From positions 1,240,001 to 1,304,000 of the forward strand of contig NZ_JABBYJ010000001.1 in the NCBI RefSeq assembly GCF_012932565.1: DNA of 64,000 nt, read 5' to 3'. The translations under genes were made by a program, and so were the position numbers. Below the pieces are notes generated by a model, which was given only the letters and a program-made list of their open reading frames with translations, made no database searches and was not told the origin of the DNA. This document shows, one piece after another, positions 31,658 through 45,846 of the stretch. Positions within the stretch are counted from its first letter, which is position 1, and every line of letters starts with the position of its first letter. The DNA is from Sneathiella limimaris (lineage in GTDB: Bacteria > Pseudomonadota > Alphaproteobacteria > Sneathiellales > Sneathiellaceae).

Positions 31658-32038
31658 TTATGTGGCGGGTTGCTCTGACATTTCCCCTGAAGGTTTATTC
31701 TGTGGTTTTAAACCTTCCATAATCTGCTTATTTACAGAGATTAAAGGAGCCAGTTCGGCTTCGCCTTTCATGGCTGGAATACTGTACTTATTCACCCAGA
31801 TCGCTAGGGAAATAAGCTGAGCCCTGAGTTCCAGGGGGAGTTTGTTCTCCTCGGAAGCGAGGTCCACTTGCAATGTGAGCCAGAGTTGCCGGTTGTCGGC
31901 GACGGCTTTTACGACTGCAACTGGACCTTCCGCCTCAGCTTTTTCCAAAGCTCGAGTGAAGATTGCGAATGCCCGATATTCCGTCTGTTTCGGGCTTTCG
32001 GTGCTCTGATTTGCCTTTTGATATGCTGCTACAGACAT
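31658..32038 (-). CDS. flaF: Flagellar biosynthesis regulator FlaF, copy 1
   Basis: 126 aa. FlaF is the alphaproteobacterial factor needed for flagellin secretion and synthesis and counteracts FlbT. The FlaF pattern is AYQKANQSTESPKQTEYRAF, then NRQLWLTLQVDLASEENKLP and LISLAIWVNKYS. It follows flagellin 1 by 68 nt. A second FlaF, at 37590-38000, aligns along its whole length. Confidence 0.93.
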   Translation of the reverse strand: MSVAAYQKANQSTESPKQTEYRAFAIFTRALEKAEAEGPVAVVKAVADNRQLWLTLQVDLASEENKLPLELRAQLISLAIWVNKYSIPAMKGEAELAPLISVNKQIMEGLKPQNKPSGEMSEQPAT

Positions 32039-32106
32039 TCTTTAGACTCTTACTATCCCTGACATCGTACTTAATTTTCACCGAAAATCGTTACGATTGT
32101 CTTACC

Positions 32107-33240
32107 TTACTGGAATAGAGAGAGGATTGACTGTGGACGCGCGTTGGCAATTGACAGAGACTGAATACCAAGTTGTTCCTTGGTCTGCAGTGCCTGCAGT
32201 TCAGCGCTGGCTTCGGCAAGGTTCGCATCGACCAGGATACCCAGGCCTTCCTGAAGCTTATCAACCAGCAACTGGGTGAATTCACTTTGCGTATCCAGAC
32301 GGTTGGCGGCTGTACCCAAGGTAGTCATAATTTGGCCAACCAGAGTTTCCGCGTTATCCAGAACCGAAATCGGATCACCGGCGATCACACCGGCAGTTGC
32401 GCCTGTCAAAGTTGTGGCGACTGTGACAGTTTCACCATGGGCAATTTCAACGACACCATCTTCTTCGATAGTGACGGCAAAGCCTTCCTGGCGCATGACA
32501 TTGGCCATGATGCCAACCATCTGGTTGTTTGACTGTGTCGCGGTGTCAACTGTCACTGCATGGACATAAATTCCGTTAGCTTCATCGACAGATGATGTAA
32601 GAGGGTTACCGTCTTCTGTAATTTCGAAGATGTGAACATCACCACTGGCGAGTGTCAGAGTGATCGTGTCGTCTTCTGAAACAGAGAAGGTGTTGTCCAG
32701 TGTTAGGGTAGCGGCCTGACCGGACAGATCGAAGTTTGACAGACCAAGGGATGCAACAGTTGCATCCTGAGCGGCTACTGTTTGTGTAACGCCGCCAAGC
32801 GCTGACAAAACTTCAAGGTCGGTGCCAGAACCATCGATCAGGTTAACACCGTTAAAAATTGATGTATTTACGATAGATGTAATTTGCTCAACAAGCGCAT
32901 CGGCTTCTTCCTGCAAGATCGTAACATCAAGGCCATCATTAAATGCCTGGGTTACTTTTTTATTCAGGTCGATGAGTACTTCAGAAATCTGAAGGGCGCC
33001 TGCGTTGGCCATGTTCACTGTTGCCTGACCGAAAGAGAGACCTTCCTGGATCGCTTTCAAAGAACCAACATCGCCGCGCATGCCTTGAGCAATTGTGAAC
33101 GTGGATGGGTCATCTTTCGCTTCTGCAACTTTAAGTCCGGTTTCAATTTGCCGCTGAACAGTATTCAACGAGTTCTGTGTTAATGACAATGTGCGCAGTG
33201 CAGCCATTGCCGTAACGTTAGTATTTACTGAAAAAGCCAT
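32107..33240 (-). CDS. Flagellin, copy 1
   Basis: 377 aa filament protein exported by the flagellar type III system. The conserved N-terminal helical region is MAFSVNTNVTAMAALRTL, with DDPSTFTIAQGMRGDV, and the C-terminal one ends SIANARPQSILSLFQ. The middle 140-300 region is a beta-rich variable domain, longer than in minimal alphaproteobacterial flagellins. Only one tyrosine is visible (NGIYVHAV). AGGAG precedes the ATG, and a sigma-54 site lies at 33306-33321. It forms a unit with flaF copy 1. Confidence 0.96.
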   Translation of the reverse strand: MAFSVNTNVTAMAALRTLSLTQNSLNTVQRQIETGLKVAEAKDDPSTFTIAQGMRGDVGSLKAIQEGLSFGQATVNMANAGALQISEVLIDLNKKVTQAFNDGLDVTILQEEADALVEQITSIVNTSIFNGVNLIDGSGTDLEVLSALGGVTQTVAAQDATVASLGLSNFDLSGQAATLTLDNTFSVSEDDTITLTLASGDVHIFEITEDGNPLTSSVDEANGIYVHAVTVDTATQSNNQMVGIMANVMRQEGFAVTIEEDGVVEIAHGETVTVATTLTGATAGVIAGDPISVLDNAETLVGQIMTTLGTAANRLDTQSEFTQLLVDKLQEGLGILVDANLAEASAELQALQTKEQLGIQSLSIANARPQSILSLFQ

Positions 33241-33576
33241 TTTCTTTCTCCTGTAGCAATTTCAAATAGCAATCATTTGATCGCAAACTCACTCGGGCCT
33301 TGATTTGCAACAGGTGTGCCAGTTTTATAAATAATTGATTTTGTTGATATATTAGAGATTTGATAAAAAATTTGCGGAGAATTTGCTAAGGAAAAACGGA
33401 ACTTAACTAGGAAAAAACTGCTTAGCTCGGAATCAATTGCCTGCAGGGCGAGTATCTGATGCGCATATGACTCTAATGAGTTGAGTTCTGGAAAAATGAT
33501 TATTGATTGAGGATCTGTTAACCATAAAGTTGGATACTGAGACTAGATACAGTTGAGACATCCAAGAGGCGCGGAC
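33241..33576. other. Divergent intergenic region between flagellin 1 and sulfotransferase 1
   Basis: 336 nt without a gene. It holds the sigma-54 site (33306-33321) reading towards flagellin 1, and a weak leader hairpin TCAAAT/ATTTGA (33262-33280). The right half is AT-rich; I see no clear promoter for the sulfotransferase gene. Confidence 0.6.
33306..33321 (-). promoter_or_regulatory. Sigma-54 (RpoN) promoter of flagellin 1
   Basis: On the minus strand the sequence is TGGCAC-ACCTG-TTGCA: the -24 GG and -12 GC doublets are intact with the right spacing (TGGCAC-N5-TTGCW). It ends 66 nt upstream of the flagellin ATG. Late flagellar genes of alphaproteobacteria are commonly RpoN dependent. Confidence 0.88.
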
Positions 33577-35148
33577 GTGAGTAGAGCATTAAAGAGAAAA
33601 CAGGCCCTAAAACAAAAGAAAGAGGCAAAGAAACTTGTGCTGTCTCCAGCCTCCACAGGTTTGTCAAACGAGCAGCTTATTCAGTTGAAGAAGATCATGA
33701 CGCTCGCTGATACCGCGTTTGCAGAGGGGCGTTATCCAGAAGCGGAGAAATGTTGTAAGCTGGCATTAGGGATGTATCCTAAATATGCAGATCCTTATCA
33801 CTTGCTTGGTGGTATTGCATTGCAGATGGATAAATATGCAGAAGCCGTCGCTTTGTTTGAGCAGGCACTCAAGATTGCTCCTAATGCACCTATTTCCCTG
33901 AACAACTACGGAATTGCCCTCAAATTTTTAAATCGGCATGAAGAAGCTTTGGTTGCATTGAATAAGAGCCTGAAGCTGAAACCGAATTATCATGAAGCCC
34001 TAAATAATAAAGGCAGTGTTCTGAGTGTCTTGGGTCAGATGGATAAGTCAATGCCGTTTTTTGAAAAATCGGCCAAGGTCAATCCTCTTTTTGGAAAGGC
34101 CTACTATAACATTGCGACGGGGCATAAATTCAAAGAAGGGGATCATTTTTCCCAAATACTCCAGGCCGGCGAATCCAATCTGGAGAAGATGACTGAAACA
34201 GATCAAATGAACATGCATTTTGCCTTGGGTAAATATTATGAAGATCTGAAAGATTATAAGAAAGGGTTTTCGCATTATTTGAATGCCAACAGTTTGAAAC
34301 GGAAAACGCTGGATTATTCTGTGGAAACGGCTGAAAATATGATGCTGAAAATGGAGCAGGTGTTTTCAGAGGAAAGCGATTGGCCTCAAAGGACAGATGT
34401 TGGATCTCAGTCCGATGTTCCAATTTTTGTGCTTGGGATGCCACGTTCCGGGACAACCTTGACAGAACAAATTCTAGCAAGTCATCCGGAAGTATTCGGT
34501 GCCGGTGAGTTGAAATTGTTGAATGTCGCTGCGAATGGATTGGCAGTAAATAACGAGGGCTTCTTTCCGACAGCAGAAGGCGTATTGGAGAAATTTGAGA
34601 AAGACATTCGCCGGAGAGGTGATTTATTTGTCTCTGAATTGAGAAAATATGATCCTAAGGCTGCTCACATTACGGATAAAATGCCGCAGAATTTTCGCTA
34701 CCTGGGTCTAATTCATGTTCTGATGCCCAAGGCAAAGATTATCCATTGTCGCCGGAATCCAGTCGATACGTGCCTGTCCAACTTCAGGATCCTTTTTGGC
34801 GAAAAAATGGAATACACCTATGACCTGAGAGATATTGGACGGTACTATCTGGCGTACGATCGGCTAATGAAACATTGGGAAAAAGTGCTTCCAGGCAGGT
34901 TTTTGACGGTTCAGTACGAAGATGTCGTCGCTGATTTAGAAGGGCAAGCCAGAAAAATCATTGATTATTGCGGATTGGATTGGGATGACGCCTGTTTATC
35001 ATTCCACAAGACGAAGCGAAGTGTTCACACAGCGAGTACAACACAGGTGCGCCAACCAATCTACAACAGTTCGGTTGGTCGCTATGAGCGGTATGGAGAT
35101 TTGCTGAAACCGCTCCTGGACACATTGGCGCCGGTGTTGGAGGCTTAA
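33577..35148 (+). CDS. TPR-repeat sulfotransferase, paralogue 1
   Basis: 523 aa from GTG 33577 (GAGG 7 nt upstream). The N-terminal ~230 residues are tetratricopeptide repeats (YPEAEKCCKLALGMYPKYAD, YAEAVALFEQALKIAPNAP and so on). The C-terminal half is a PAPS-dependent Sulfotransfer_3 domain: phosphosulfate loop GMPRSGTTL near residue 286 and 3'-phosphate motif HCRRNPVDTCLSNF near residue 389. The ending ASTTQVRQPIYNSS resembles the tyrosylprotein-sulfotransferase S-x-x-QV-x-x-P motif. No signal peptide, so it acts in the cytoplasm. The acceptor is unknown; placement among flagellin genes suggests the filament or its glycan. Confidence 0.88.
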   Translation: MSRALKRKQALKQKKEAKKLVLSPASTGLSNEQLIQLKKIMTLADTAFAEGRYPEAEKCCKLALGMYPKYADPYHLLGGIALQMDKYAEAVALFEQALKIAPNAPISLNNYGIALKFLNRHEEALVALNKSLKLKPNYHEALNNKGSVLSVLGQMDKSMPFFEKSAKVNPLFGKAYYNIATGHKFKEGDHFSQILQAGESNLEKMTETDQMNMHFALGKYYEDLKDYKKGFSHYLNANSLKRKTLDYSVETAENMMLKMEQVFSEESDWPQRTDVGSQSDVPIFVLGMPRSGTTLTEQILASHPEVFGAGELKLLNVAANGLAVNNEGFFPTAEGVLEKFEKDIRRRGDLFVSELRKYDPKAAHITDKMPQNFRYLGLIHVLMPKAKIIHCRRNPVDTCLSNFRILFGEKMEYTYDLRDIGRYYLAYDRLMKHWEKVLPGRFLTVQYEDVVADLEGQARKIIDYCGLDWDDACLSFHKTKRSVHTASTTQVRQPIYNSSVGRYERYGDLLKPLLDTLAPVLEA

Positions 35149-35155
35149 GACATAA

Positions 35156-36727
35156 TCATCTGGATTGATTGAGAATAGCAGTTAGAGGCTGTAATTCTTC
35201 TTCATAAGTTCGCCATGCTTCTACAGAAGATTTATAGATCGGTTGACGAACCTGGTCAGTGCTGGCTGTCCTGACAGCTCGTTTTGTCTTGTAAAACTGT
35301 AGGCAATTGTCGTCCCAATCTAACTCGCAATAATCAAGGAGTTTTCGGGTCTCACTCTCTTGGTCGGCAATCATCTCTTCATATGTGACCTCATAAAGGT
35401 CATCCCCCAAGAGAGATTTCCAGTACTCCATATGATTGAGGTACAGATTGTAAAACCTGCCAAGCTCTTCCAAATCATAGGCAAATTTCTGGTCCCCGAC
35501 GAAGAATTTCTTGTATATGGAAAGACAAGTGTCTTCCGGGGTTCTTTTGCAATGAATAATCTTCGCGTTGGGAAGTATTAATTTAATAAGGCCGGTGTAG
35601 ATGAAGTTTCTGGGCATCTTGTCGATTATAAAAGATGCCTTACTCCCCAACTTATTTAATTGTTGGATATAGTCTGAACCCAGCTCCTTGAGGAATTCCT
35701 CTGATGCGTTCGCAAATGCTTCTGAGAAACTTCGCTCTCCCTTCTGTCGGATGAGGTAGAAGTACGTCTTTTCAAGATTGTAAAGCTCTCCGGCACCGTA
35801 AACGGCACGGTGTGATGCCAGAATTTGTTCGACAAGGGACGTCCCGGACCTTGGCATCCCGAGTACAAAAATGGGGCGGTTATCTTGAACCCCTGAGTTT
35901 TTGTGTGCCTTGAAAAAATCTGGTGAAATTGTATTCCGGATCTCTTCGAATTCTGCTGCGGTTTCCTCGATGTCATAGGAATAGGTTGCTCTATGCGCCT
36001 GATTTGCTTGCAGATAGACGCTGAAGGACTTTTTGTTTTGTTTAAGGTCCTCCAAGGCTTTTGCGTAAGCAAATAACACGTTTGCCTTGTCTTCACCGGT
36101 GAAGCTTTCTGTTTCTGCCAATGTCTTTAGAAGTAAAAAGTCTTCATCTTCCTCTACAAATTTTTTTGCTTCTGCCATGTTTCTGGCGGACTTGGTGTAG
36201 CCAGGCTGCTGCTTGAGAACTTCCCGATAAAACTGGATCGCTGTTTCATTCTCACCTTTTTCGTAGAACGCGTTTCCAAGGTTATGCCGGGCAGGGTAGA
36301 AAGTTGGATCTGTTTTAAGTGCTTTTTTGAGAACCGATATTGAAGAGGGGATATTTCCCATCGCCAGCAAGATTCCGCCTAAGTTATTCATGGCCGACGC
36401 ATATTTGGGTTCTATTTTGATGGCCTTGCGAAATGCCTTTTCGGCCTGTTTTGCCTCTCCAATTTCACGCAAAGCACTTCCAAGGTTATTGTAAAACATG
36501 GCCTTTTTCGGCCCTATTTCCAACGCCTTCTGAATGAGCTCAATCGCAATCCGGTGTTTCCCACGTTGATGATAAAGCGTTCCGAGGAGGTTATAGGGAT
36601 CAGGGTTTTTGGGAAACTGGGTAATCAGTTGGCGGTAAATAGCCTCAGCTTGGTCCCATTGACCCTGCTGGTGCAATTGCACAGCCTGCTTTAGAGCATT
36701 ATTAATTATGGATTGTTGAGCAATCAC
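35156..36727 (-). CDS. TPR-repeat sulfotransferase, paralogue 2
   Basis: 523 aa from GTG 36727 (GGGGA 7 nt upstream). It has the same architecture and exactly the same length as paralogue 1, which converges on it with a 7-nt gap. TPR units (AIYRQLITQFPKNPDPYNLLG, AIELIQKALEIGPKKAMFY) are followed by GMPRSGTSLVEQILASH, HCKRTPEDTCLSIYKKF and the end motif ASTDQVRQPIYKSS. The two proteins differ widely in sequence, so the duplication is old. It lies upstream (in its own direction) of flagellin 1 and downstream of DUF1217, on the same strand as the flagellar genes. Confidence 0.88.
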   Translation of the reverse strand: MIAQQSIINNALKQAVQLHQQGQWDQAEAIYRQLITQFPKNPDPYNLLGTLYHQRGKHRIAIELIQKALEIGPKKAMFYNNLGSALREIGEAKQAEKAFRKAIKIEPKYASAMNNLGGILLAMGNIPSSISVLKKALKTDPTFYPARHNLGNAFYEKGENETAIQFYREVLKQQPGYTKSARNMAEAKKFVEEDEDFLLLKTLAETESFTGEDKANVLFAYAKALEDLKQNKKSFSVYLQANQAHRATYSYDIEETAAEFEEIRNTISPDFFKAHKNSGVQDNRPIFVLGMPRSGTSLVEQILASHRAVYGAGELYNLEKTYFYLIRQKGERSFSEAFANASEEFLKELGSDYIQQLNKLGSKASFIIDKMPRNFIYTGLIKLILPNAKIIHCKRTPEDTCLSIYKKFFVGDQKFAYDLEELGRFYNLYLNHMEYWKSLLGDDLYEVTYEEMIADQESETRKLLDYCELDWDDNCLQFYKTKRAVRTASTDQVRQPIYKSSVEAWRTYEEELQPLTAILNQSR

Positions 36728-36800
36728 CGATCATCCCCAGAAAGACACAAGAAGAAACTACCCAATCCTTGCAATTTAGGGATAATTTTTGGTTAAAATT

Positions 36801-37580
36801 TTATACGAATATGTTAACGCCCTGTGGCATAGGGCCAACCCCGCCGTTCGATACAGGCTGGAATAGCGATAACATCGGATTAGCCGTGGCGTCTGTATTG
36901 TTAATTTCCGTCATGATCAGGAAACGTTCGACCATCTTGTCAATCTTTGCAGGATCCTTGAAATCATCCATATCAAGTTCCTTTGCCAGACGCGCTTTCT
37001 GCTGCTCATATTCCAGCGATTGAAAGCTTTCAGGCAGGCCCAAACCAACCCTGACGACATGCATCAGTGTTTTGTCAGCCAGAACCTGAGAAACCTCTTC
37101 AACACCCCCAGCCACGCGGTCAAAATACATGGCTTCCCGGATGCCAGGCGCGTTGGTGCCTTCAAACTTTTCAAACTCGTTGGTCTTATAACCTTCCAGA
37201 ATGAGGTTTACATTTGCTTCATTCTGGAAAAAGTTTGGATCAAGGTTGAGACCATACATTGCTTTAGAAAGCTTAGTCCATCTTGGCTCAACCAGTTTGT
37301 TGACGAGGCTGTTCTTATCTTCCGGATCCTCTGAAAGCATTTTTTCGACCATCGCATATTTGTCGATTTCGCTTTCGAGCTGGAACGCGGAGAGTGTAAC
37401 TTTGAGGAGAGTTCGATTTTTCATTAAATCGTCAACGGATTTTACGTTGACGATTTCTTCTTTGAAGGTTTCGATATCGCGCGCAGTTGTTGGCTGAGCC
37501 TCAAAGAGTTTCATATGAGACTCTTTTTGATCATTGGCCAATTTGTACCAAAGAAGAGAACTTGTGGACGACAACTGCAT
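36801..37580 (-). CDS. DUF1217 family flagellar-associated protein
   Basis: 259 aa. The DUF1217 pattern is seen as TTARDIETFKEEIVNVKSVDDLM and LLKVTLSAFQLESEIDKYAMVEKML. The C terminus (NPMLSLFQPVSNGG) echoes flagellin tails. DUF1217 proteins occur in alphaproteobacterial flagellar loci; their exact role is unknown, perhaps a filament or hook accessory protein. It begins 10 nt after the flaF copy 2 stop, so it is probably co-transcribed with flagellin 2 and flaF 2. Confidence 0.85.
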   Translation of the reverse strand: MQLSSTSSLLWYKLANDQKESHMKLFEAQPTTARDIETFKEEIVNVKSVDDLMKNRTLLKVTLSAFQLESEIDKYAMVEKMLSEDPEDKNSLVNKLVEPRWTKLSKAMYGLNLDPNFFQNEANVNLILEGYKTNEFEKFEGTNAPGIREAMYFDRVAGGVEEVSQVLADKTLMHVVRVGLGLPESFQSLEYEQQKARLAKELDMDDFKDPAKIDKMVERFLIMTEINNTDATANPMLSLFQPVSNGGVGPMPQGVNIFV

Positions 37581-37589
37581 GGTATCTAC

Positions 37590-38000
37590 CTATATCGCAA
37601 TTTCACTAAACGCTTGCTCACTTGTTTCCTGAACAGGTTGCGTTTTCTGCTTTGCAGCGTCGCGAAGGCCAGCCATGATATCTTTGTTGACAGCAATTAG
37701 GGGTTCTAGGTCAGTTTTAGTTCTCATAACCTGAGAAGTAAACCGGTTGACCCAAAGTGCCAACGAAATCAGTCCAGCCTTGGTTTCCTTGTTCAATCCG
37801 TTGTCTTCTGACATCAGATCTGCGTGCAATGTCAACCATAGCTGAGAATTTCTAAAAATTGCGTTAATTTTTTCTGAAGGTGAGGCTTCGGGCTTATTGG
37901 CCGCAACAAGCTCTCCAGTAATTTCTGCGAACAAACGATATTCGGTCTGTGCCGGATGCTCTGCAGAAAGATTGGCTTTTTTATAAGCTTCAAAGAACAT
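37590..38000 (-). CDS. flaF: Flagellar biosynthesis regulator FlaF, copy 2
   Basis: 136 aa. FFEAYKKANLSAEHPAQTEYRLFAEIT, NSQLWLTLHADLMSEDNGLN and LISLALWVNRFTS match FlaF copy 1. AGGAG precedes the ATG. It lies between flagellin 2 and DUF1217. Two flaF genes, each next to its own flagellin, point to duplication of the whole module. Confidence 0.93.
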   Translation of the reverse strand: MFFEAYKKANLSAEHPAQTEYRLFAEITGELVAANKPEASPSEKINAIFRNSQLWLTLHADLMSEDNGLNKETKAGLISLALWVNRFTSQVMRTKTDLEPLIAVNKDIMAGLRDAAKQKTQPVQETSEQAFSEIAI

Positions 38001-38047
38001 CGTACTACTCCTGTAATCAAATCACTCAAAAAGAGAGGGGTATAAAG

Positions 38048-38073
38048 GAGACGGCTCCAAGAAGAGCCGTCTC
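38048..38073 (-). terminator. Strong hairpin after flagellin 2
   Basis: GAGACGGCTC (38048-38057) and GAGCCGTCTC (38064-38073) form a perfect 10-bp stem with a 6-nt loop, 15-40 nt after the flagellin stop. On the minus strand only CTTTATA follows, so it may be a partial terminator or a 3' stabiliser that sets flagellin above FlaF. Confidence 0.7.
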
Positions 38074-38087
38074 GATTATTTGACTGA

Positions 38088-39236
38088 TTAACGGAACAGT
38101 CCCAGGATAGACTGAGAAGCCGCGTTCGCAATTGACAGAGACTGGATACCCAGCTGCTCTTTAGTCTGTTCAGACTGCAGTTTCGCAGAAACTTCAGCCA
38201 GGTTGGCATCAACAAGGATACCCAGACCTTCTTCAATCTTGTCTGTCAGAACCTGAGTAAATTCAGCCTGACTTTCAAGACGGTTTGCAGCCGTACCAAG
38301 TGTTGTCAAGATAGAACCAATGGCAGTTTTTGCTCCATCCACCGCAGCGATACCACCACCGCCAACACCGTCTGCAGCGGTTACACCGCCGGAAACACCG
38401 TTAGTTGTTGTAATGGTCTGACCTGAAGCGACGACATCAATAACACCATCTTCACCAATGTTGACAGTAAGACCAGCCTCTGTGCGCATTGCTGAGGCAA
38501 GGTTACCAATCATTTCCTGGAAAGATTCTGTTGCTGTGTCGATTTGAACACCATGAACGAACGTGCCGTTAGCTTCGTCTGGAGATGAAGCCAGTGCAGT
38601 TGCACCTTCATAGAATTCAAAGACGTGAGTTTCACCACCGAAAGCAAATGTCAGAGTGTCACCAGAAGCAATTGACAAGGAGTTATCCAATGTCAAAGTG
38701 GTTTTCTCGGAAGACAGGTCCAGACCGTTAATGCCAAGACCGGTTGTTGTTGCATTCTGTTCAGCAATAGACAGAGTTGCGCCGCCAAGACCAGTCAGAA
38801 CTGTCATGCCAGAAGTTGTACCACCGTTATCGAGGAGGTTAATGCCGTTAAATTCGGCTGAGCTCACGATCGTTGTAATCTGGTTTACCATTTCATCTGC
38901 TTCTGCTTGCAGGATAGTAACATCCAGACCGTCGTTTTGAGCCTGAGTGATTTTAGCCTGCATGTCAGTCAACTGATCAGAAACCTGAGTAGCTGCGGCA
39001 AGCGCCATGTTCAATGTAGCTGTACCAAAGTTCAGACCTTCCTGAACAGCTTTAAGAGCACCAACGTCACCGCGCATGCCCTGTGCGATCACGAAAGTAG
39101 ATGGATCGTCAGTGGCACCACCAATTTTCAAGCCAGACTGAATCTGAGCCTGAATACTAGTCAGGTTATTCTGCGTGCTAGAAAGTGACCGCAGAGCAGC
39201 CATTGCGTTTGCGTTGGTATTAACTGAAAAAGCCAT
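38088..39236 (-). CDS. Flagellin, copy 2
   Basis: 382 aa. The N terminus MAFSVNTNANAMAALRSL and the C terminus SIANAASQSILGLFR are nearly those of copy 1. The variable centre is related but diverged, including a Gly-rich stretch (VTAADGVGGGGIAAVDG). It also has a single visible tyrosine (FEFYEGAT), at a different aligned position from that in copy 1. GAGG lies about 10 nt before the ATG. No sigma-54 site is seen upstream; instead three hairpins occupy the leader. Confidence 0.96.
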   Translation of the reverse strand: MAFSVNTNANAMAALRSLSSTQNNLTSIQAQIQSGLKIGGATDDPSTFVIAQGMRGDVGALKAVQEGLNFGTATLNMALAAATQVSDQLTDMQAKITQAQNDGLDVTILQAEADEMVNQITTIVSSAEFNGINLLDNGGTTSGMTVLTGLGGATLSIAEQNATTTGLGINGLDLSSEKTTLTLDNSLSIASGDTLTFAFGGETHVFEFYEGATALASSPDEANGTFVHGVQIDTATESFQEMIGNLASAMRTEAGLTVNIGEDGVIDVVASGQTITTTNGVSGGVTAADGVGGGGIAAVDGAKTAIGSILTTLGTAANRLESQAEFTQVLTDKIEEGLGILVDANLAEVSAKLQSEQTKEQLGIQSLSIANAASQSILGLFR

Positions 39237-39570
39237 AATGTATATTCCTCATATTAGAGTAAGTCGCTGTTGCGACGAAAGCGGCTCTTTTGAGCCCCGG
39301 TTTGCTTTGAAACCGTGATAGCAATATGCGAGGAATTTCCTAATAACGAGTTAATGAATGGATCAGATTTTAGCTATTAGGAGGTGTTAACCATATAATC
39401 CGTTTATTTCTGCGGTCTAATGGCTGAGATCGAATATTATGTGTTTTCTAATTTTGAAAACAATTAAGGACGTTAGGCGGCGTTTGCCGCTCAAAAAAAG
39501 AGCATCTTAAGGGATGAAATGGGGGCAAATCGAGGGTGATTCCGGCAAGATTCTTAGAGGGGGCTTCAGC
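39237..39570. other. Leader/intergenic region upstream of flagellin 2
   Basis: 334 nt between flagellin 2 and flbT, both on the minus strand. The flagellin-proximal part holds three hairpins (39263-39315). Beyond that I see a short palindrome AGGAATTTCCT around 39330-39345 but no convincing promoter boxes. Confidence 0.6.
39263..39315 (-). promoter_or_regulatory. Cluster of three hairpins in the flagellin 2 leader
   Basis: GTCGC/GCGAC (39263-39276), GGCTC/GAGCC (39283-39296) and CGGTTT/AAACCG (39298-39315) are back-to-back inverted repeats within 80 nt of the flagellin ATG. In Caulobacter FlbT acts on the flagellin mRNA leader, so this could be the target of the FlbT encoded at 39571. The stems are short; folding needs testing. 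Confidence 0.55.
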
Positions 39571-39942
39571 TTAGTCCTCAAGATGTTTTTGCAGAACTTT
39601 TAACGCGCCGTAGAAATTTTTCTCACCCACCATGCCGACAACTTCAAAAATCATTTCCCGCTGGGGGATGTCGTCTGTAGAGAGGAATGCAAACTGCGCC
39701 GCCTCTTGGAACGCTTTATAATGTGTCGCGTGATTTTCCGGCTCAATATACATCATCTGAACCTGCATATAGACGTTATGCAGTGGGGTCTTGACCTGAT
39801 CTGGAAGCATGATATCCCGCTCACGCATAATAGAGGCATCATTTTCCAGAGAGAAATGCATTGCCTTGGTACCCGTGTTGGTAATCACGGCACCGTTCAC
39901 AATAATTTTTTCTCCTGCGGGTATACGGAATTTCAAAGACAT
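39571..39942 (-). CDS. flbT: Flagellar biosynthesis repressor FlbT
   Basis: 123 aa from ATG 39942 (MSLKFRIPAGEKIIVNGAVI), with AGGGGG 9 nt upstream; an upstream start at 39972 is less likely. FlbT is a post-transcriptional regulator of flagellin mRNA in alphaproteobacteria. Further marks are NDASIMRERDIMLPDQVKTP and ENHATHYKAFQEAAQF. It is the first gene of the flagellin 2-flaF-DUF1217 strand. Confidence 0.94.
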   Translation of the reverse strand: MSLKFRIPAGEKIIVNGAVITNTGTKAMHFSLENDASIMRERDIMLPDQVKTPLHNVYMQVQMMYIEPENHATHYKAFQEAAQFAFLSTDDIPQREMIFEVVGMVGEKNFYGALKVLQKHLED

Positions 39943-40290
39943 GCGTTTAAGCCCCCTGCTGTACGCTAGCAATTTTGCCAGTTAGTAATTGAATAAGCCC
40001 TTATTGACGATCTCATCAAGTCTTAAATGCATGTGAACTTAGGGTCATTCTTGTGGATACTTTATATATTACTGCAGAATTTGCAAATTTCGTATCCCCA
40101 ATAAGGGCGATAAAACAATCCAAATAATTTCCATAAAATTCTAAAAAAACTCTATCTGTCACTCATTTGAGGTATGACAGCGCTTGTGCTGCAAAGTAAA
40201 GTTTCCAACAATTGAAGGAATATCTTCGCGCGAAATTACTAGAGTTGCGGACTGCCCTCAGTTAGGGCAGGGATTGAATAGGATTAGATT
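39943..40290. other. Divergent intergenic region between flbT and the RTX gene
   Basis: 348 nt, AT-rich in the middle. The only clear structure is the hairpin at 40252-40270 just before the RTX start. No sigma-54 site with correct spacing is visible towards either gene. Confidence 0.6.
40252..40270 (+). promoter_or_regulatory. Hairpin in the RTX-gene leader
   Basis: CTGCCCT (40252-40258), loop CAGTT, AGGGCAG (40264-40270): a perfect 7-bp stem 20 nt upstream of the ATG. Its right arm carries a purine-rich stretch that could act as a ribosome-binding site, so folding could limit translation. Confidence 0.5.
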
Positions 40291-43200
40291 ATGGCTAAGA
40301 CAGAAAACGGCATTATCAGTGCAAGCGCCAACGGTACCGTTGTTGAAGTTGAAGGCGGACAGAATATTTTACTGGATGTCGTTAATCCCGACCTTGTGGT
40401 CTTTTCACAAGATGGCAGTGATCTGGTTATCACAAACATCGCTGATGGCGCCAAAATCGTCTTAGATGGTTTCTTTTCCCAGGCCACTACAGCTTTGCCA
40501 CCGCAACTCACATTGGCAGATGGAACTGTAATTACAGCCCAAGAAGTTACTGGCCTTGTCGAAAACTTTGATCCGGATGCTGTTGCTCCTGCTGCGGGTG
40601 GTTTGCCTGGTGCTGGCGGTGGTGCTGGTTTTGGAGCCTATTTCGATGATGGTATTGGCGATGGCATTGGCATTGATGGATTGCTCGATCCAACAGAGCT
40701 TGGGTTTGGTGACGATGATATTGAAGAGTTCATTGGTGAAAATCTGGTGTTCGCTGAAGAATTGGCCGATCAGCCCGAGTTTGCGCTTAACGAAATTGGC
40801 CTAGGTTCTTTTATTTTTGATCGTGATTTCACACCGAGTGACGATTCAACCGATGGGCCTGCTTTTGCGGCGGCCTTGGAAGGGGAAAGCCTCTTTGACA
40901 AGTTGGTTGCTCTGAACAATGCCGATGTGGATAGCTTCTTGGAACTTGCAGGTGAAGGTGCTGTTGATTTCATCGAGCTTGCAAACAATACCGATGAAGA
41001 GCAATCAACAGGCGGCAATGGTGGTGATGTTGAGGGAACAACGACAATTTCTGTGATTGGTCCTGAAGGTTCACCAGTCTCCTTTGATTTGCCATCACTG
41101 ACAGTTGCTGCAGGTGGTAAAGTAGTTGTCTTGCAGGCAGAAGTCGGTGGCGGGGTTGAAACCCTCTATCTGGTTTTTGATGCGGATGGCAACATCACGG
41201 ATGCAGGCAACTTGGCTGACGTTGGCGATTGGCCAATGGGCAGCAACACAAGCCAGCCACTAGGCGTTCTTGTGACTTGGTCTATCGATGGCGAAGTCGG
41301 CCAACTTGATACTTTCCTCGCAAATGGTGCTCAGTTTGAGCCTGCTTCCTTGAACGAGAATTGGCAGGGTATTCCTGCAGTTGCCGCTGCTTTGGACATT
41401 TTTGGTGATAGCGATACTTTCGATGGCCAGATTTCCAAGCAGGAAGATGTGAGTGAAAAACTCTTTGATGAGTATGCGCCTGTTAGCCTGCAGCAGATGG
41501 TGGATGAAGGACCTCTTGGTGCTGACTTCTTCCACAATATCGATATCAATAATATTTTCGCACGTGTAGATAACTTCGATTCAGACGGCGCCGCTGACTG
41601 GACAACTGGTCAATCGCACACAATCGGGCTCGCAAATAGTGGTTCAGATATGAACCCACAGGATCCTTACAATGATGATATGGATCCAGGCCAACCAGCC
41701 GGACCAGGTGCGGCTGCCGGTGAAGACGCTGACAGTAACGGTCAGAACGTTATTTTGCTGGGCGATGGTGAAGACGACTCAGCCTTTATCAATGATGAGG
41801 GTGTTGTTGAAGGCGGTCGTGGGCAAGATTTCATCATTGGTGATGAAAACGACAATGAACTCGACGGCGGTGCCCATAATGACTTCCTCGACGGTGGTGC
41901 CGGTAATGATATTCTTGATGGTAGCACTGGTGGCGACGTCCTGATTGATGATCAGGGTAACGATATCTTGGTCGGTGGAACAGGAACAGATGTTCTCTTT
42001 GGTCGCCGCGGTGCTTTTGAAGACACCATGTATGGCGGTGGAGGCAATGAGTTCTTTGTTTCTGCAAAGATTGATAGCCAGTCAGAGAGCGATGAAATTG
42101 GTGATGAGGACGGTGCAACCGACTATAGCGGTGGTGACGTTCTGGTTGGTGATGAACTTTTCTTTGGCGCTTCCGGTAATGACTTCATGTATGGGGGCGG
42201 CCAGAATGACTTCCCTCAAGTGAGATTGGCGGCAATCAGCGATAGCATGTATGGCAGTGAACTTGAGTCCGAAGAAGATTTCATGCGGGACATCATCGTT
42301 GCTGGAGATGGCCACGATGTGATCTTTGGTGATAATGCTAATCTTCCTGATTACGGCCCAGGTGTGACTTACGAGTATTGGTATTATCTTTTCGAGCCAA
42401 TGTATTACGTAGGTCCACAAGAATTCCCTTACTTCCTCGAAAGAATGGTTGAGCTTAACTATGGCGGTGCTGACCTCATTTATGGTGGTTGGGGCAACGA
42501 TATTATTCTCGGTCAGGGCGGCGACGATCTGATTTTGGCAGGTCATGGCAATGATATTGCGCTAGGTGGTTCCGGCGATGACGTTATTCGCGGTAACCTA
42601 GGTTACGATAGCCTTTACGGTGGTACTGGTGACGACACCATGTATGGCGGTGGCGACAGCGACTACATGATGGGCATGGAAGATGACGACCTCATGTATG
42701 GCGGTTCCGGTTACGATTCCATGTATGGCGGCTCTGGCGCTGATGTCATGTATGGTGAGGGTGACAGCGACTTCATGTACGGGAACTCCGGCAATGACAT
42801 TATGTCAGGCGGTGAAGGCGCTGACTTCATGTACGGGAACTCTGGCAACGATATCATGTATGGAGATGGCGGAAACGACGCTATGTATGGCGGATCCGGC
42901 AATGACCTGATGATCGGCGGTGCCGACAACGATACCATGCTCGGTGAAAACGGTGATGATACGCTCTATGGTGGCATTGGCGCAGACTCCATGCGTGGCG
43001 GTAGCGAAAACGACGCTATGTATGGCGGCGCCGACAATGACTTTATGATGGGCGAAAGCGGCGACGACACCATGCATGGTGGGTCTGGAAATGACTCCAT
43101 GGTGGGCGGTTCTGGCGAAGATCTCATGTATGGCGGTGCCGATAATGACATCATGTACGGTGGTACAGAAGATGACGTTATGTATGGTGGCTCAGGTGCC

Positions 43201-45846
43201 GATTTCATGGTCGGCGAGTCCGGTGATGATCAGATGTTTGGGGGCGCTAATAACGATCTCATGGTAGGTGGGTCTGGTAACGACTCCTTATTTGGTGGAG
43301 CTGGCTCCGATCAAATGTTCGGTAACGACGGCGATGACGTCATGTACGGCCAATCCGGTATGGATTTCATGTACGGCAACTCCGGCAATGATAGCATGTT
43401 CGGCGGCGCTGATGGCGACTTGATGTACGGTCAGTCCGGTGATGACGTTATGTACGGAAATTCCGGTGCCGATTTCATGTATGGCGGTTCTGGTAACGAT
43501 AGCATGTTCGGCGGTGCCGATGACGACTTGATGTATGGTCAGTCTGGCGATGACGTTATGTACGGAAATTCCGGTGCCGATTTCATGTATGGCGGTTCTG
43601 GCAACGATAGCATGTTCGGCGGCGCTGATGGCGACTTGATGTATGGTCAGTCTGACGATGATGTCATGCACGGTAACTCTGGTGAAGATACCATGTATGG
43701 CGGTGATGAAAACGACACCATGTTCGGTGGTGGCGATAATGACCTTATGTTCGGTGAAGACGGCTCTGATGAAATGTCAGGCGGAGCTGGCAACGACTCC
43801 ATGTTTGGTGGTGGTAGCCGCGACACCATGTCTGGCAATTCCGGTGATGATTACATTGATGGCGGACGCGGCGCAGATCTGATTTACGGCAACAGCGGTA
43901 ATGACGAATTGTTCGGCGGGCGTGGTCGGGATACCATGTATGGAGGAGCTGACGACGACACTATGTCAGGTGATCGCGGTTCTGATGAAATGTACGGTGG
44001 CGCTGGTCTTGATATCATGACAGGTGGTCGTGGATCAGACACCATGCTTGGTGGTTCTGGTAACGACTCTATGTCCGGTGATCAGCATAATGACGACATG
44101 TCAGGTGGATCCGGTGACGATACTCTGGATGGTAACTCCGGTAGTGATGATGTTGCGGGTAATTCTGGCGATGACATCCTGCGCTGGACAATGTCGGAAA
44201 ATGCTGGTGCAACTGACAACTACAATGGTGGATCTGATACCGATACGCTTGAGCTTTACTTTACGGCGGCTGAGTTCGCTGCCCATGAAGCTGCAATTGC
44301 TAAATTCTCAAACGATGTTGAAGATTTTGGTTCCGGCACATTGACGGTCGACGGCCGCATACTGAATGCAAGCAACATTGAATATGTTGCTGTGCATGTG
44401 GATGGCGAGGAAGTTCCTGTTCTGATTGATGATGAATTCACAACAGATGAAGATACGGATCTGAACGAGCAATTGACTGCAGATCCAAACGAGCAGGACT
44501 TTATTCCAAACGCTCAGATTACCAATTTCCATACACCTGGTGCGGTAGCCTTTACCTTGCCGTTGACAGCGGTTGTTGTGAATTATGACGCTTCTGACTG
44601 GGTACAGGTTGGCGATGTCTGGACACTTGATCTTGTTGACGGTGGTGACGACTATGGTGACTTGATTGTCAATGCGACAAATCCAGAGGCGGTTACTGTC
44701 ACCCTGGATATCCCACAAGGGGACAACACCATCTGGGATCCAATGGATACTGGTGATACTGCCAAGATTGTCTTCAAGTATTCTGCAGATGTAGAAGGAA
44801 CTGAGGACGCTACGGTCACCATCAATGTGAACGGCGTCAATGACGGTCCGGTAGCGGCTGATGATATTGTGATTACCAATAGTCTTGATCCAATTTATGT
44901 TCCGAAATCAGGTCTTCTGGCAAATGATACGGACATGGAAGGTGATGACCTGAGTGTCAGCGCCGTAACGGATCCGGCGAGTGATTACGATCCAAACTTT
45001 GCTGTTCTTGATGGTGCAAACCGGATTGATAGTCTGGATCCAGCAAGCCTGACTGCTGGCGGCTCAATTTCTGAAAATATTCCAACGGAAGCTGGTGAAG
45101 AGCTGACCCTGACCTTTACATTTGATCCGATGGTATTTGGAACATCAGACTCTATTGAAGTTTGGTGGAATGGAGAGTTGCTTGATACAGTCTCTGGTAT
45201 TTTCCCAGGCGAGACACAGCTGCAGTATGATGTCGTCGGTGCCGACGGGGAAACCGACACATTGTTGGAATTCCGGGGTATCTCTAATGACGGAACGCTG
45301 GACCCAGAAATTTCAGGCGTTCATATTAGCAACCGGGACTTTGACTATACTGCTGACGATGGCGATGCAACTGACGATGCTCATGTTGATGTCTTCTATC
45401 AGACAGGTCATGAGCTTCAAGGTGGTGATGCCAATGAAATTATCGTTGGCGGTGAAGAAGCCGATACAATTCGCGGCGGTGCTGGTGATGATACGATCCT
45501 CGGCGGTGAAGGGGATGATGTCCTTATCGGCGGCGAAGGTTCTGATGTCTACATGTTCGGCTATCCGGAAAATGAAGACGATGGTCATGATGAAATCCGT
45601 GGTTTTGATGAAGAGGAAGATGCCATTGATCTGGATGCTATTTTCGATGAGCTTGGCGTTGCCAATATCGAGGACCGGGCAGATCTGATCAATATGGAGC
45701 ATGTTGACGGGGATACAGTTATCACCATCGACGGTAAAGCTGACTTCTCCATCACAGTTGATGCGGTGGAACTTGGCGAAACAGACGGCGCTTTCAGTTC
45801 AGCTGAGTTGCTTGCCAGAGGAATTATTGTGAGCGATGAAAGCTGA
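40291..45846 (+). CDS. Giant RTX calcium-binding surface protein / adhesin with possible LapG-type cleavage motif
   Basis: 1851 aa, very acidic. Residues 1-95 are a small beta-rich domain (DLVVFSQDGSDLVITNIADGA) resembling the BapA/LapA prefix or retention module. P100-AAGG-104 followed by a Gly-rich linker resembles the LapG protease site. Residues ~110-500 lack a recognised fold. RTX nonapeptides begin near 510, are interrupted near 580-720, then run unbroken to about 1297. A VCBS/cadherin-like part (TINVNGVNDGPVAADD) follows, then a final RTX block and the C-terminal type I secretion signal region. No T1SS, lapD or lapG gene is in the window. Calcium would fold the repeats outside the cell. 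Cell-surface adhesion is inferred. Confidence 0.92.
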   Translation: MAKTENGIISASANGTVVEVEGGQNILLDVVNPDLVVFSQDGSDLVITNIADGAKIVLDGFFSQATTALPPQLTLADGTVITAQEVTGLVENFDPDAVAPAAGGLPGAGGGAGFGAYFDDGIGDGIGIDGLLDPTELGFGDDDIEEFIGENLVFAEELADQPEFALNEIGLGSFIFDRDFTPSDDSTDGPAFAAALEGESLFDKLVALNNADVDSFLELAGEGAVDFIELANNTDEEQSTGGNGGDVEGTTTISVIGPEGSPVSFDLPSLTVAAGGKVVVLQAEVGGGVETLYLVFDADGNITDAGNLADVGDWPMGSNTSQPLGVLVTWSIDGEVGQLDTFLANGAQFEPASLNENWQGIPAVAAALDIFGDSDTFDGQISKQEDVSEKLFDEYAPVSLQQMVDEGPLGADFFHNIDINNIFARVDNFDSDGAADWTTGQSHTIGLANSGSDMNPQDPYNDDMDPGQPAGPGAAAGEDADSNGQNVILLGDGEDDSAFINDEGVVEGGRGQDFIIGDENDNELDGGAHNDFLDGGAGNDILDGSTGGDVLIDDQGNDILVGGTGTDVLFGRRGAFEDTMYGGGGNEFFVSAKIDSQSESDEIGDEDGATDYSGGDVLVGDELFFGASGNDFMYGGGQNDFPQVRLAAISDSMYGSELESEEDFMRDIIVAGDGHDVIFGDNANLPDYGPGVTYEYWYYLFEPMYYVGPQEFPYFLERMVELNYGGADLIYGGWGNDIILGQGGDDLILAGHGNDIALGGSGDDVIRGNLGYDSLYGGTGDDTMYGGGDSDYMMGMEDDDLMYGGSGYDSMYGGSGADVMYGEGDSDFMYGNSGNDIMSGGEGADFMYGNSGNDIMYGDGGNDAMYGGSGNDLMIGGADNDTMLGENGDDTLYGGIGADSMRGGSENDAMYGGADNDFMMGESGDDTMHGGSGNDSMVGGSGEDLMYGGADNDIMYGGTEDDVMYGGSGADFMVGESGDDQMFGGANNDLMVGGSGNDSLFGGAGSDQMFGNDGDDVMYGQSGMDFMYGNSGNDSMFGGADGDLMYGQSGDDVMYGNSGADFMYGGSGNDSMFGGADDDLMYGQSGDDVMYGNSGADFMYGGSGNDSMFGGADGDLMYGQSDDDVMHGNSGEDTMYGGDENDTMFGGGDNDLMFGEDGSDEMSGGAGNDSMFGGGSRDTMSGNSGDDYIDGGRGADLIYGNSGNDELFGGRGRDTMYGGADDDTMSGDRGSDEMYGGAGLDIMTGGRGSDTMLGGSGNDSMSGDQHNDDMSGGSGDDTLDGNSGSDDVAGNSGDDILRWTMSENAGATDNYNGGSDTDTLELYFTAAEFAAHEAAIAKFSNDVEDFGSGTLTVDGRILNASNIEYVAVHVDGEEVPVLIDDEFTTDEDTDLNEQLTADPNEQDFIPNAQITNFHTPGAVAFTLPLTAVVVNYDASDWVQVGDVWTLDLVDGGDDYGDLIVNATNPEAVTVTLDIPQGDNTIWDPMDTGDTAKIVFKYSADVEGTEDATVTINVNGVNDGPVAADDIVITNSLDPIYVPKSGLLANDTDMEGDDLSVSAVTDPASDYDPNFAVLDGANRIDSLDPASLTAGGSISENIPTEAGEELTLTFTFDPMVFGTSDSIEVWWNGELLDTVSGIFPGETQLQYDVVGADGETDTLLEFRGISNDGTLDPEISGVHISNRDFDYTADDGDATDDAHVDVFYQTGHELQGGDANEIIVGGEEADTIRGGAGDDTILGGEGDDVLIGGEGSDVYMFGYPENEDDGHDEIRGFDEEEDAIDLDAIFDELGVANIEDRADLINMEHVDGDTVITIDGKADFSITVDAVELGETDGAFSSAELLARGIIVSDES
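42475..44175 (+). repeat. About 63 consecutive 27-bp RTX repeat units
   Basis: An in-frame 9-codon periodicity runs through this stretch. The usual unit is G-G-S-G-N-D-S-M-Y/F, with Met in the hydrophobic position of most units and Tyr, Phe or Val after it. Aspartates for calcium binding are kept. Inside it a 108-bp (four-unit) block is repeated three times. Confidence 0.9.
43333..43656 (+). repeat. Three tandem 108-bp higher-order repeats inside the RTX gene
   Basis: Copies at 43333-43440, 43441-43548 and 43549-43656 each start GATGACGT and encode 36 residues (four nonapeptides) around GNSGADFMYGGSGNDSMFGG. The second and third copies differ by only a few bases, which suggests recent duplication or gene conversion. 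Confidence 0.88.

Follow-up and report, generated by a model that had tools for sequence, protein, structure and literature searches.

Why should two sulfotransferase genes lie between the two flagellin genes of Sneathiella limimaris? The genes, ST1 (33553-35148, plus strand) and ST2 (35156-36727, minus strand), are found in a 64,000-nucleotide stretch of the genome (the window; its positions are used throughout). Each encodes tetratricopeptide repeats (TPR) followed by a Sulfotransfer_3 domain scoring above the curated Pfam cut-off (E 5e-51 for ST1 and 2e-40 for ST2), the layout of the TPR-sulfotransferase (TPR-ST) family. Our reading, to which we give a probability of about 0.58, is that both would be cytoplasmic sulfotransferases that use 3'-phosphoadenosine 5'-phosphosulfate (PAPS) and are dedicated to the neighbouring flagellins, with a TPR arm like that of FlmG holding the flagellin and sulfate being added before export. 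The evidence consists of the anatomy of the locus, the predicted fold, the catalytic residues, a conserved position, repeated recruitment to flagellin genes and a PAPS-forming gene in the same genome; from these we infer that flagellin is the substrate and that it is sulfated. An earlier analysis of the window from its letters alone (the sequence-only reading) had raised filament sulfation as a possibility. The assignment of the sulfotransferases to the flagellin locus has since held up, and sulfation of the filament is the most economical and best available reading, better grounded than the window alone allowed; the sulfation itself is still a proposal.

ST1 is composed of an N-terminal TPR arm, at about residues 37-252, and a domain resembling the tyrosylprotein sulfotransferases (TPSTs), at about 285-531. 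In the AlphaFold model of ST1 (mean pLDDT 91.7, pTM 0.87), residues 285-531 match human TPST1 and TPST2 with Z 23-24 and a root-mean-square deviation (rmsd) of about 3 over 236-244 residues (TPST1: Z 23.7, rmsd 3.1, 244 residues), and the modelled TPR arm matches that of O-GlcNAc transferase (OGT; Z about 20-21). By sequence profile, protein-tyrosine sulfotransferases are the closest relatives of solved structure (E 4e-20). The catalytic residues of TPST2, R78, E99, K158 and S285 (PMC5562738), align with R298, E319, K376 and S495 of ST1, which are invariant in 30 diverse sequences, and a PAPS-binding motif accompanies the TPST fold. ST2 is 48% identical to ST1 in the sulfotransferase domain. 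For PAPS, the S. limimaris genome (G000; 3.66 Mb, three contigs) encodes an adenosine 5'-phosphosulfate kinase domain within an open frame of 647 residues. Nonsynonymous divergence (dN) from the congener G009 is 0.16 for ST1 and 0.28 for ST2 at saturated synonymous divergence (dS), which indicates that both genes are probably under purifying constraint, consistent with working enzymes. Further sulfotransferase genes exist in G000, and the one that was read lacks TPRs.

The position of the two genes ties them to the flagellins. ST1 is divergent from fla1 (32107-33240, minus strand) over 312 bp and convergent with ST2, with 7 bp between the stops. fla1 encodes a 377-aa long-type flagellin (Flagellin_N and Flagellin_C by Pfam) whose extra outer-domain insert of ~110 aa is seen in alignment with short-type orthologues, and flaF1 lies next to it (31658-32038, minus strand; FlaF E 1e-31). 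ST2 is the last gene of a same-strand run headed by fla2 (38088-39236, minus strand; long-type by Pfam, 382 aa) and continued by flaF2 (37590-38000, minus strand; FlaF E 4e-27) and a DUF1217 gene (36801-37580, minus strand; Pfam), with gaps of 87, 9 and 73 bp. In intact congeneric loci the DUF1217 gene likewise sits between both flagellins, as judged by synteny. flbT (39571-39972, with an ATG start at 39942, minus strand; FlbT E 2e-26) completes the island. Pfam thus confirmed, at the same positions, the two flagellin-flaF units, DUF1217, flbT and two TPR-STs that the sequence-only reading had described.

A genome search showed fla1 and fla2 to be the only two true flagellins of G000; a third Flagellin_N match is sub-threshold and ~300 kb from the island. 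A search of the window for flgE, flgI, flgK, flgL, fliD and fliW found none of them. A pattern scan located a site resembling a sigma-54-type promoter, TGGCACACCTGTTGC (33307-33321, minus strand), ~67 bp upstream of fla1; this is a weak indication and only suggestive, since the pattern has 6 matches in the window against 3.8 expected.

To compare the locus within the genus, 25 genomes, G000 and 24 congeners, were searched for the sulfotransferase domain and flagellins, and the flagellin loci of most congeners were fetched and annotated. Close TPR-STs lie beside or between flagellins in 7 of the 25; the arrangement recurs in six congeners and is not chance. An eighth genome has one extra, non-flagellar copy (G011 C16). 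The genus shares a conserved frame of ACC, flaF1, fla1, a slot, DUF1217, (flaF2), fla2 and flbT. In species with short flagellins (about 270-300 aa) the slot is empty wherever the locus is intact. Long flagellins (about 380-430 aa in open frame) carry the ~110-aa extra outer domain in both paralogues, by alignment, and the slot is occupied by a TPR-ST, a TPR-methyltransferase (TPR-MT) or both in all 11 long-flagellin genomes examined. TPR-STs fill it in G000 and G009, a TPR-MT of ~750 aa in G005, G011, G012 and G024 (Pfam was run on two of these and on others), and both in G015, G017 and G019. G004 has its methyltransferase gene on the contig of a second flagellin, with sulfotransferases also present, and the G007 locus, interrupted by contig ends, shows sulfotransferase fragments only. 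Within the long-flagellin group the sulfotransferases are patchy in occurrence and constant in position: ST1-type genes are divergent from fla1, and ST2-type genes lie on the fla2 strand after the methyltransferase or DUF1217. In G017 and G019, ST2 comes after the TPR-MT, overlapping it by 4 bp in G019. The ~750-aa enzymes of the slot carry the motif QYEENPYPRW (L061:7029-9290, L054:3846-6089, L055:2016-4310 and L057:11793-14042). A paralogue resembling them, 45% identical to the flagellin-linked kind, is present in S. limimaris ~34 kb before the window start (G000:C1:1205576-1206313), with similar matches in the short-flagellin congeners G001, G003 and G022.

Taken as a mechanism, the TPR arm would hold the flagellin monomer in the cytoplasm, by analogy with Caulobacter FlmG, and the TPST-like domain would move sulfate from PAPS onto it before FlaF-assisted export. 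The acceptors would probably be hydroxyls of Ser/Thr residues in the outer domain, or else some small group carried by that domain. The interval between DUF1217 and fla1 would be an exchangeable flagellin-modification slot, holding a TPR-MT, a TPR-ST, both or nothing in related species.

Recruitment to flagellin genes appears to have happened repeatedly. In a tree of about 250 sulfotransferase domains, the ST1 and ST2 of the genus fall into two clades far apart, each surrounded by relatives from other taxa that are not flagellar, and these separate branches imply two acquisitions into the same slot. Four further lineages have a TPR-ST beside a flagellin gene. The order is flbT, flagellin, TPR-ST and a PKMT-type methyltransferase in G313 (L211); fliD, flagellin, TPR-ST, a methyltransferase with MethyTransf_Reg, fliW, flgL and flgK in Ferruginivarius sediminum (L155); and flagellin, TPR-ST, flgL and flgK in a metagenome-assembled genome of Xanthobacteraceae (L138); the fourth, G142, was judged from coordinates. 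At L096 a TPR-ST lies near hook-type genes. Among ~190 loci outside the genus, adjacency (gap <=2 kb) was seen 4 times against about 0.5 expected (Poisson P 0.002), P values here resting on four cases and on an approximate background density of 0.39 flagellin genes per Mb, counted in 36 genomes. Within 10 kb, the distance at which the sequence-only reading had looked for enrichment, 4 cases stand against ~1.5 expected (P 0.06), an excess that is not convincing. That enrichment is strong in the genus, weak outside it, and clearer for immediate adjacency.

TPR-MT relatives, their flanks judged from coordinates, also lie between flagellins in G400 (52% identity) and next to flagellins in G087; enzymes for methylation and for sulfation thus turn up together repeatedly at flagellin genes. 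Two unrelated lineages have a methyltransferase with MethyTransf_Reg immediately adjacent to a flagellin-linked TPR-ST (L211:11085-12740, which also has a PKMT C-terminal domain, and L155:10778-12409). TPR-ST and TPR-MT genes also occur together away from flagellins (L083:315-20728 and L177:5862-11159). In another alphaproteobacterium (G029), a 613-aa protein with TPR as its only Pfam match, possibly of the FlmG type, adjoins flbT and a flagellin (L078:2365-4203).

Several observations weigh against a dedicated flagellin sulfotransferase. Few TPR-STs are near flagellins outside the genus; only four extra-genus loci (L096, L138, L155 and L211) were flagellar in a flank scan of ~180, and the idea of a generally flagellar family was rejected. 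Three ST1-type copies are present in each of G004 and G019, and the flagellin island of G009 holds a broken third TPR-ST (L049:6678-7996); such copy-number bursts and decay suggest a fast-changing target. In a tree of concatenated neighbour genes with midpoint rooting, long- and short-flagellin species are sister groups, so the split is one event and the association between insert and enzyme counts once. Four long-flagellin species have no sulfotransferase at the locus; a long flagellin therefore does not require sulfation. The flagellins of ST-positive species share no conserved Tyr acceptor in alignment, and a gene for an RTX surface protein, 3.6 kb from ST2, offers an alternative substrate.

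Most TPR-STs of other bacteria are not near flagella, and their immediate neighbourhood is non-random. The longest open reading frame (ORF) within <=600 bp of the TPR-ST, at 100 deduplicated loci, encoded an autotransporter in 13, a TonB receptor in 10, Porin_4 in 5, an RTX protein in 3, Porin_2 in 2 and DcaP in 2. As a control, the longest ORF 4-7.5 kb away at the same loci was a TonB receptor in 2, with autotransporters, porins, RTX and DcaP at <=1 each; these counts cover the first 25 families, and control counts of 1 are possible. A separate scan found 19 autotransporter ORFs within 1 kb of a TPR-ST against 6 at 1-10 kb, and 27 TonB receptors against 5. The autotransporter pairing also appears in the public annotation of plasmids from Thalassospira, Enterobacter, Kluyvera and Pacificitalea. 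Further TPR-STs beside surface-protein genes, among family loci L082-L260 and others, include L126:5940-8471, L144:1028-8275 and L051:7987-14047. Because the nearest neighbours are non-random surface proteins across the family, the flagellin-linked enzymes are best seen, by analogy with RaxST beside RaxX, as the flagellar members of a family whose enzymes are paired with adjoining surface proteins. More tentatively, at somewhat less than even odds, TPR-STs as a whole could form a class of bacterial protein sulfotransferases that is widespread and so far undescribed. Such enzymes would work in the cytoplasm on proteins yet to be exported, combining a TPST-like catalytic site with a recognition arm similar to that of OGT, and each would have as its partner the product of the adjacent surface-protein gene, be it an autotransporter, TonB receptor, porin, RTX protein or flagellin. 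For TonB-linked members, the substrates might be small molecules or peptides instead.

The flagellin-directed reading has to be weighed against three others. The strongest of them, which we consider unlikely, has the enzymes acting on a glycan carried by, or made for, flagellin. Flagellin glycosylation is common, a TPR-ST in G011, within the same genus, lies between an autotransporter and a TPR-GT9 gene, and on plasmids of Enterobacter sp. 638 and Kluyvera a GT8 gene and an autotransporter come after the TPR-ST; in Halobacterium, the N-linked tetrasaccharide of glycoproteins, also on archaellins, is reported to be sulfated (PMC11980604, PMC6591318). However, the flagellin island has no glycosyltransferase, a search of G000 found no NeuB, and in the one glycosyltransferase family surveyed, GT9, G000 has just two genes, whose products of about 313-323 aa leave no room for a fused TPR region. 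A glycan of the pseudaminic or legionaminic type is unlikely for these reasons, and a nonulosonate acceptor was rejected on the missing NeuB. The sequence-only reading had favoured a sugar or lipid acceptor. That preference was not borne out, given the protein-tyrosine sulfotransferases as nearest solved enzymes, the family's place beside surface-protein genes and the lack of NeuB and TPR-GT9. The acceptors that remain would be Ser/Thr hydroxyls or some small substituent or glycan.

A second alternative, and an improbable one, is that the substrate is the neighbouring RTX protein (40291-45846) or another surface protein, with the place in the flagellin island giving co-regulation only. The RTX protein has 1851 aa, with cadherin-like domains and numerous MYGG-type repeats that contain Tyr. 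TPR-STs do adjoin surface-protein genes elsewhere, RTX among them, and at the flagellin locus the RTX gene was found only in long-flagellin species; it is nonetheless also present in species without a sulfotransferase there (G005, G011, G012 and G024), is separated from ST1 and ST2 by flbT and fla2, and has no match at the flagellin-linked loci L155 and L138. As a general explanation the RTX link was rejected, few RTX matches being found near TPR-STs. Direct tyrosine O-sulfation of flagellin in the manner of TPST or RaxST, despite the TPST fold and catalytic residues of ST1, is very improbable and was rejected as a general model because, as the sequence-only reading had noted and argued, the single Tyr of each flagellin (Y225 and Y209) does not align, and because Tyr is unconserved, the FlaA of two ST-positive congeners (G017, and G019 with four intact TPR-STs) has no Tyr at all, and Tyr is commoner in flagellins of MT-only species than of ST species.

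If TPR-STs do sulfate the adjoining protein, sulfation would count among the common modifications of bacterial surfaces, and the gene pairs would supply a list of enzymes with their substrates. On flagella it would add negative charge, with possible effects on filament bundling, on adhesion, on phage adsorption or on recognition by hosts, and the flagellin-ST pairing can be tested by simple genetics in alphaproteobacteria that are cultivable. To our knowledge, protein sulfation has been described in very few bacterial cases, of which RaxST is the clear one. In the literature, subscription papers aside, we found no description of flagellin sulfotransferases, TPR-sulfotransferases or autotransporter sulfation, and no paper on TPR-STs adjoining autotransporter, TonB receptor or porin genes. 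The neighbourhood of TPR-STs and surface proteins points to a route, so far undescribed, by which surface proteins would be sulfated ahead of export.

Known systems share parts of this design. Autotransporter glycosyltransferases of the BAHT/AAH type are cytoplasmic and are encoded beside the surface protein they modify, as the TPR-STs are beside surface-protein genes, but they transfer heptosyl groups rather than sulfate. The flagellin modification islands of Enterobacteriaceae also have modifying enzymes inserted beside flagellin, methylation by FliB being one option; the main text of the island survey names no sulfotransferase or TPR fusion (PMC4875605, PMC7181671). TPST1 and TPST2 share with ST1 the fold across the whole domain and the R/E/K/S catalytic set (PMC5562738), whereas ST1 and ST2 have a TPR arm, no transmembrane or Golgi context and flagellin neighbours without a conserved Tyr. 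RaxST of Xanthomonas, a bacterial protein sulfotransferase modelled on TPST2, is encoded beside its secreted substrate (PMC6637879), and ST1 and ST2 lie beside their presumed one, a likeness drawn from description rather than sequence; RaxST, however, sulfates a Tyr of the RaxX peptide and works with a dedicated secretion system, and no rax-like neighbours were seen in the flagellin island. Another close design is that of Caulobacter FlmG, a TPR and GT-B flagellin glycosyltransferase whose TPR domain binds flagellins (PMC7591256). Like FlmG, ST1 and ST2 fuse an N-terminal TPR region, OGT-like in the ST1 model, to a transferase, lie in a flaF-flbT neighbourhood and would act on cytoplasmic flagellin before export. 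They differ from it in that two genes lie on opposite strands, in a genome that lacks NeuB and hence the pseudaminic-acid pathway, and in a C-terminus that is Sulfotransfer_3 with a TPST fold instead of GT-B. ST1 and ST2 resemble FlmG in design but, with a different transferase domain, are not members of its family.

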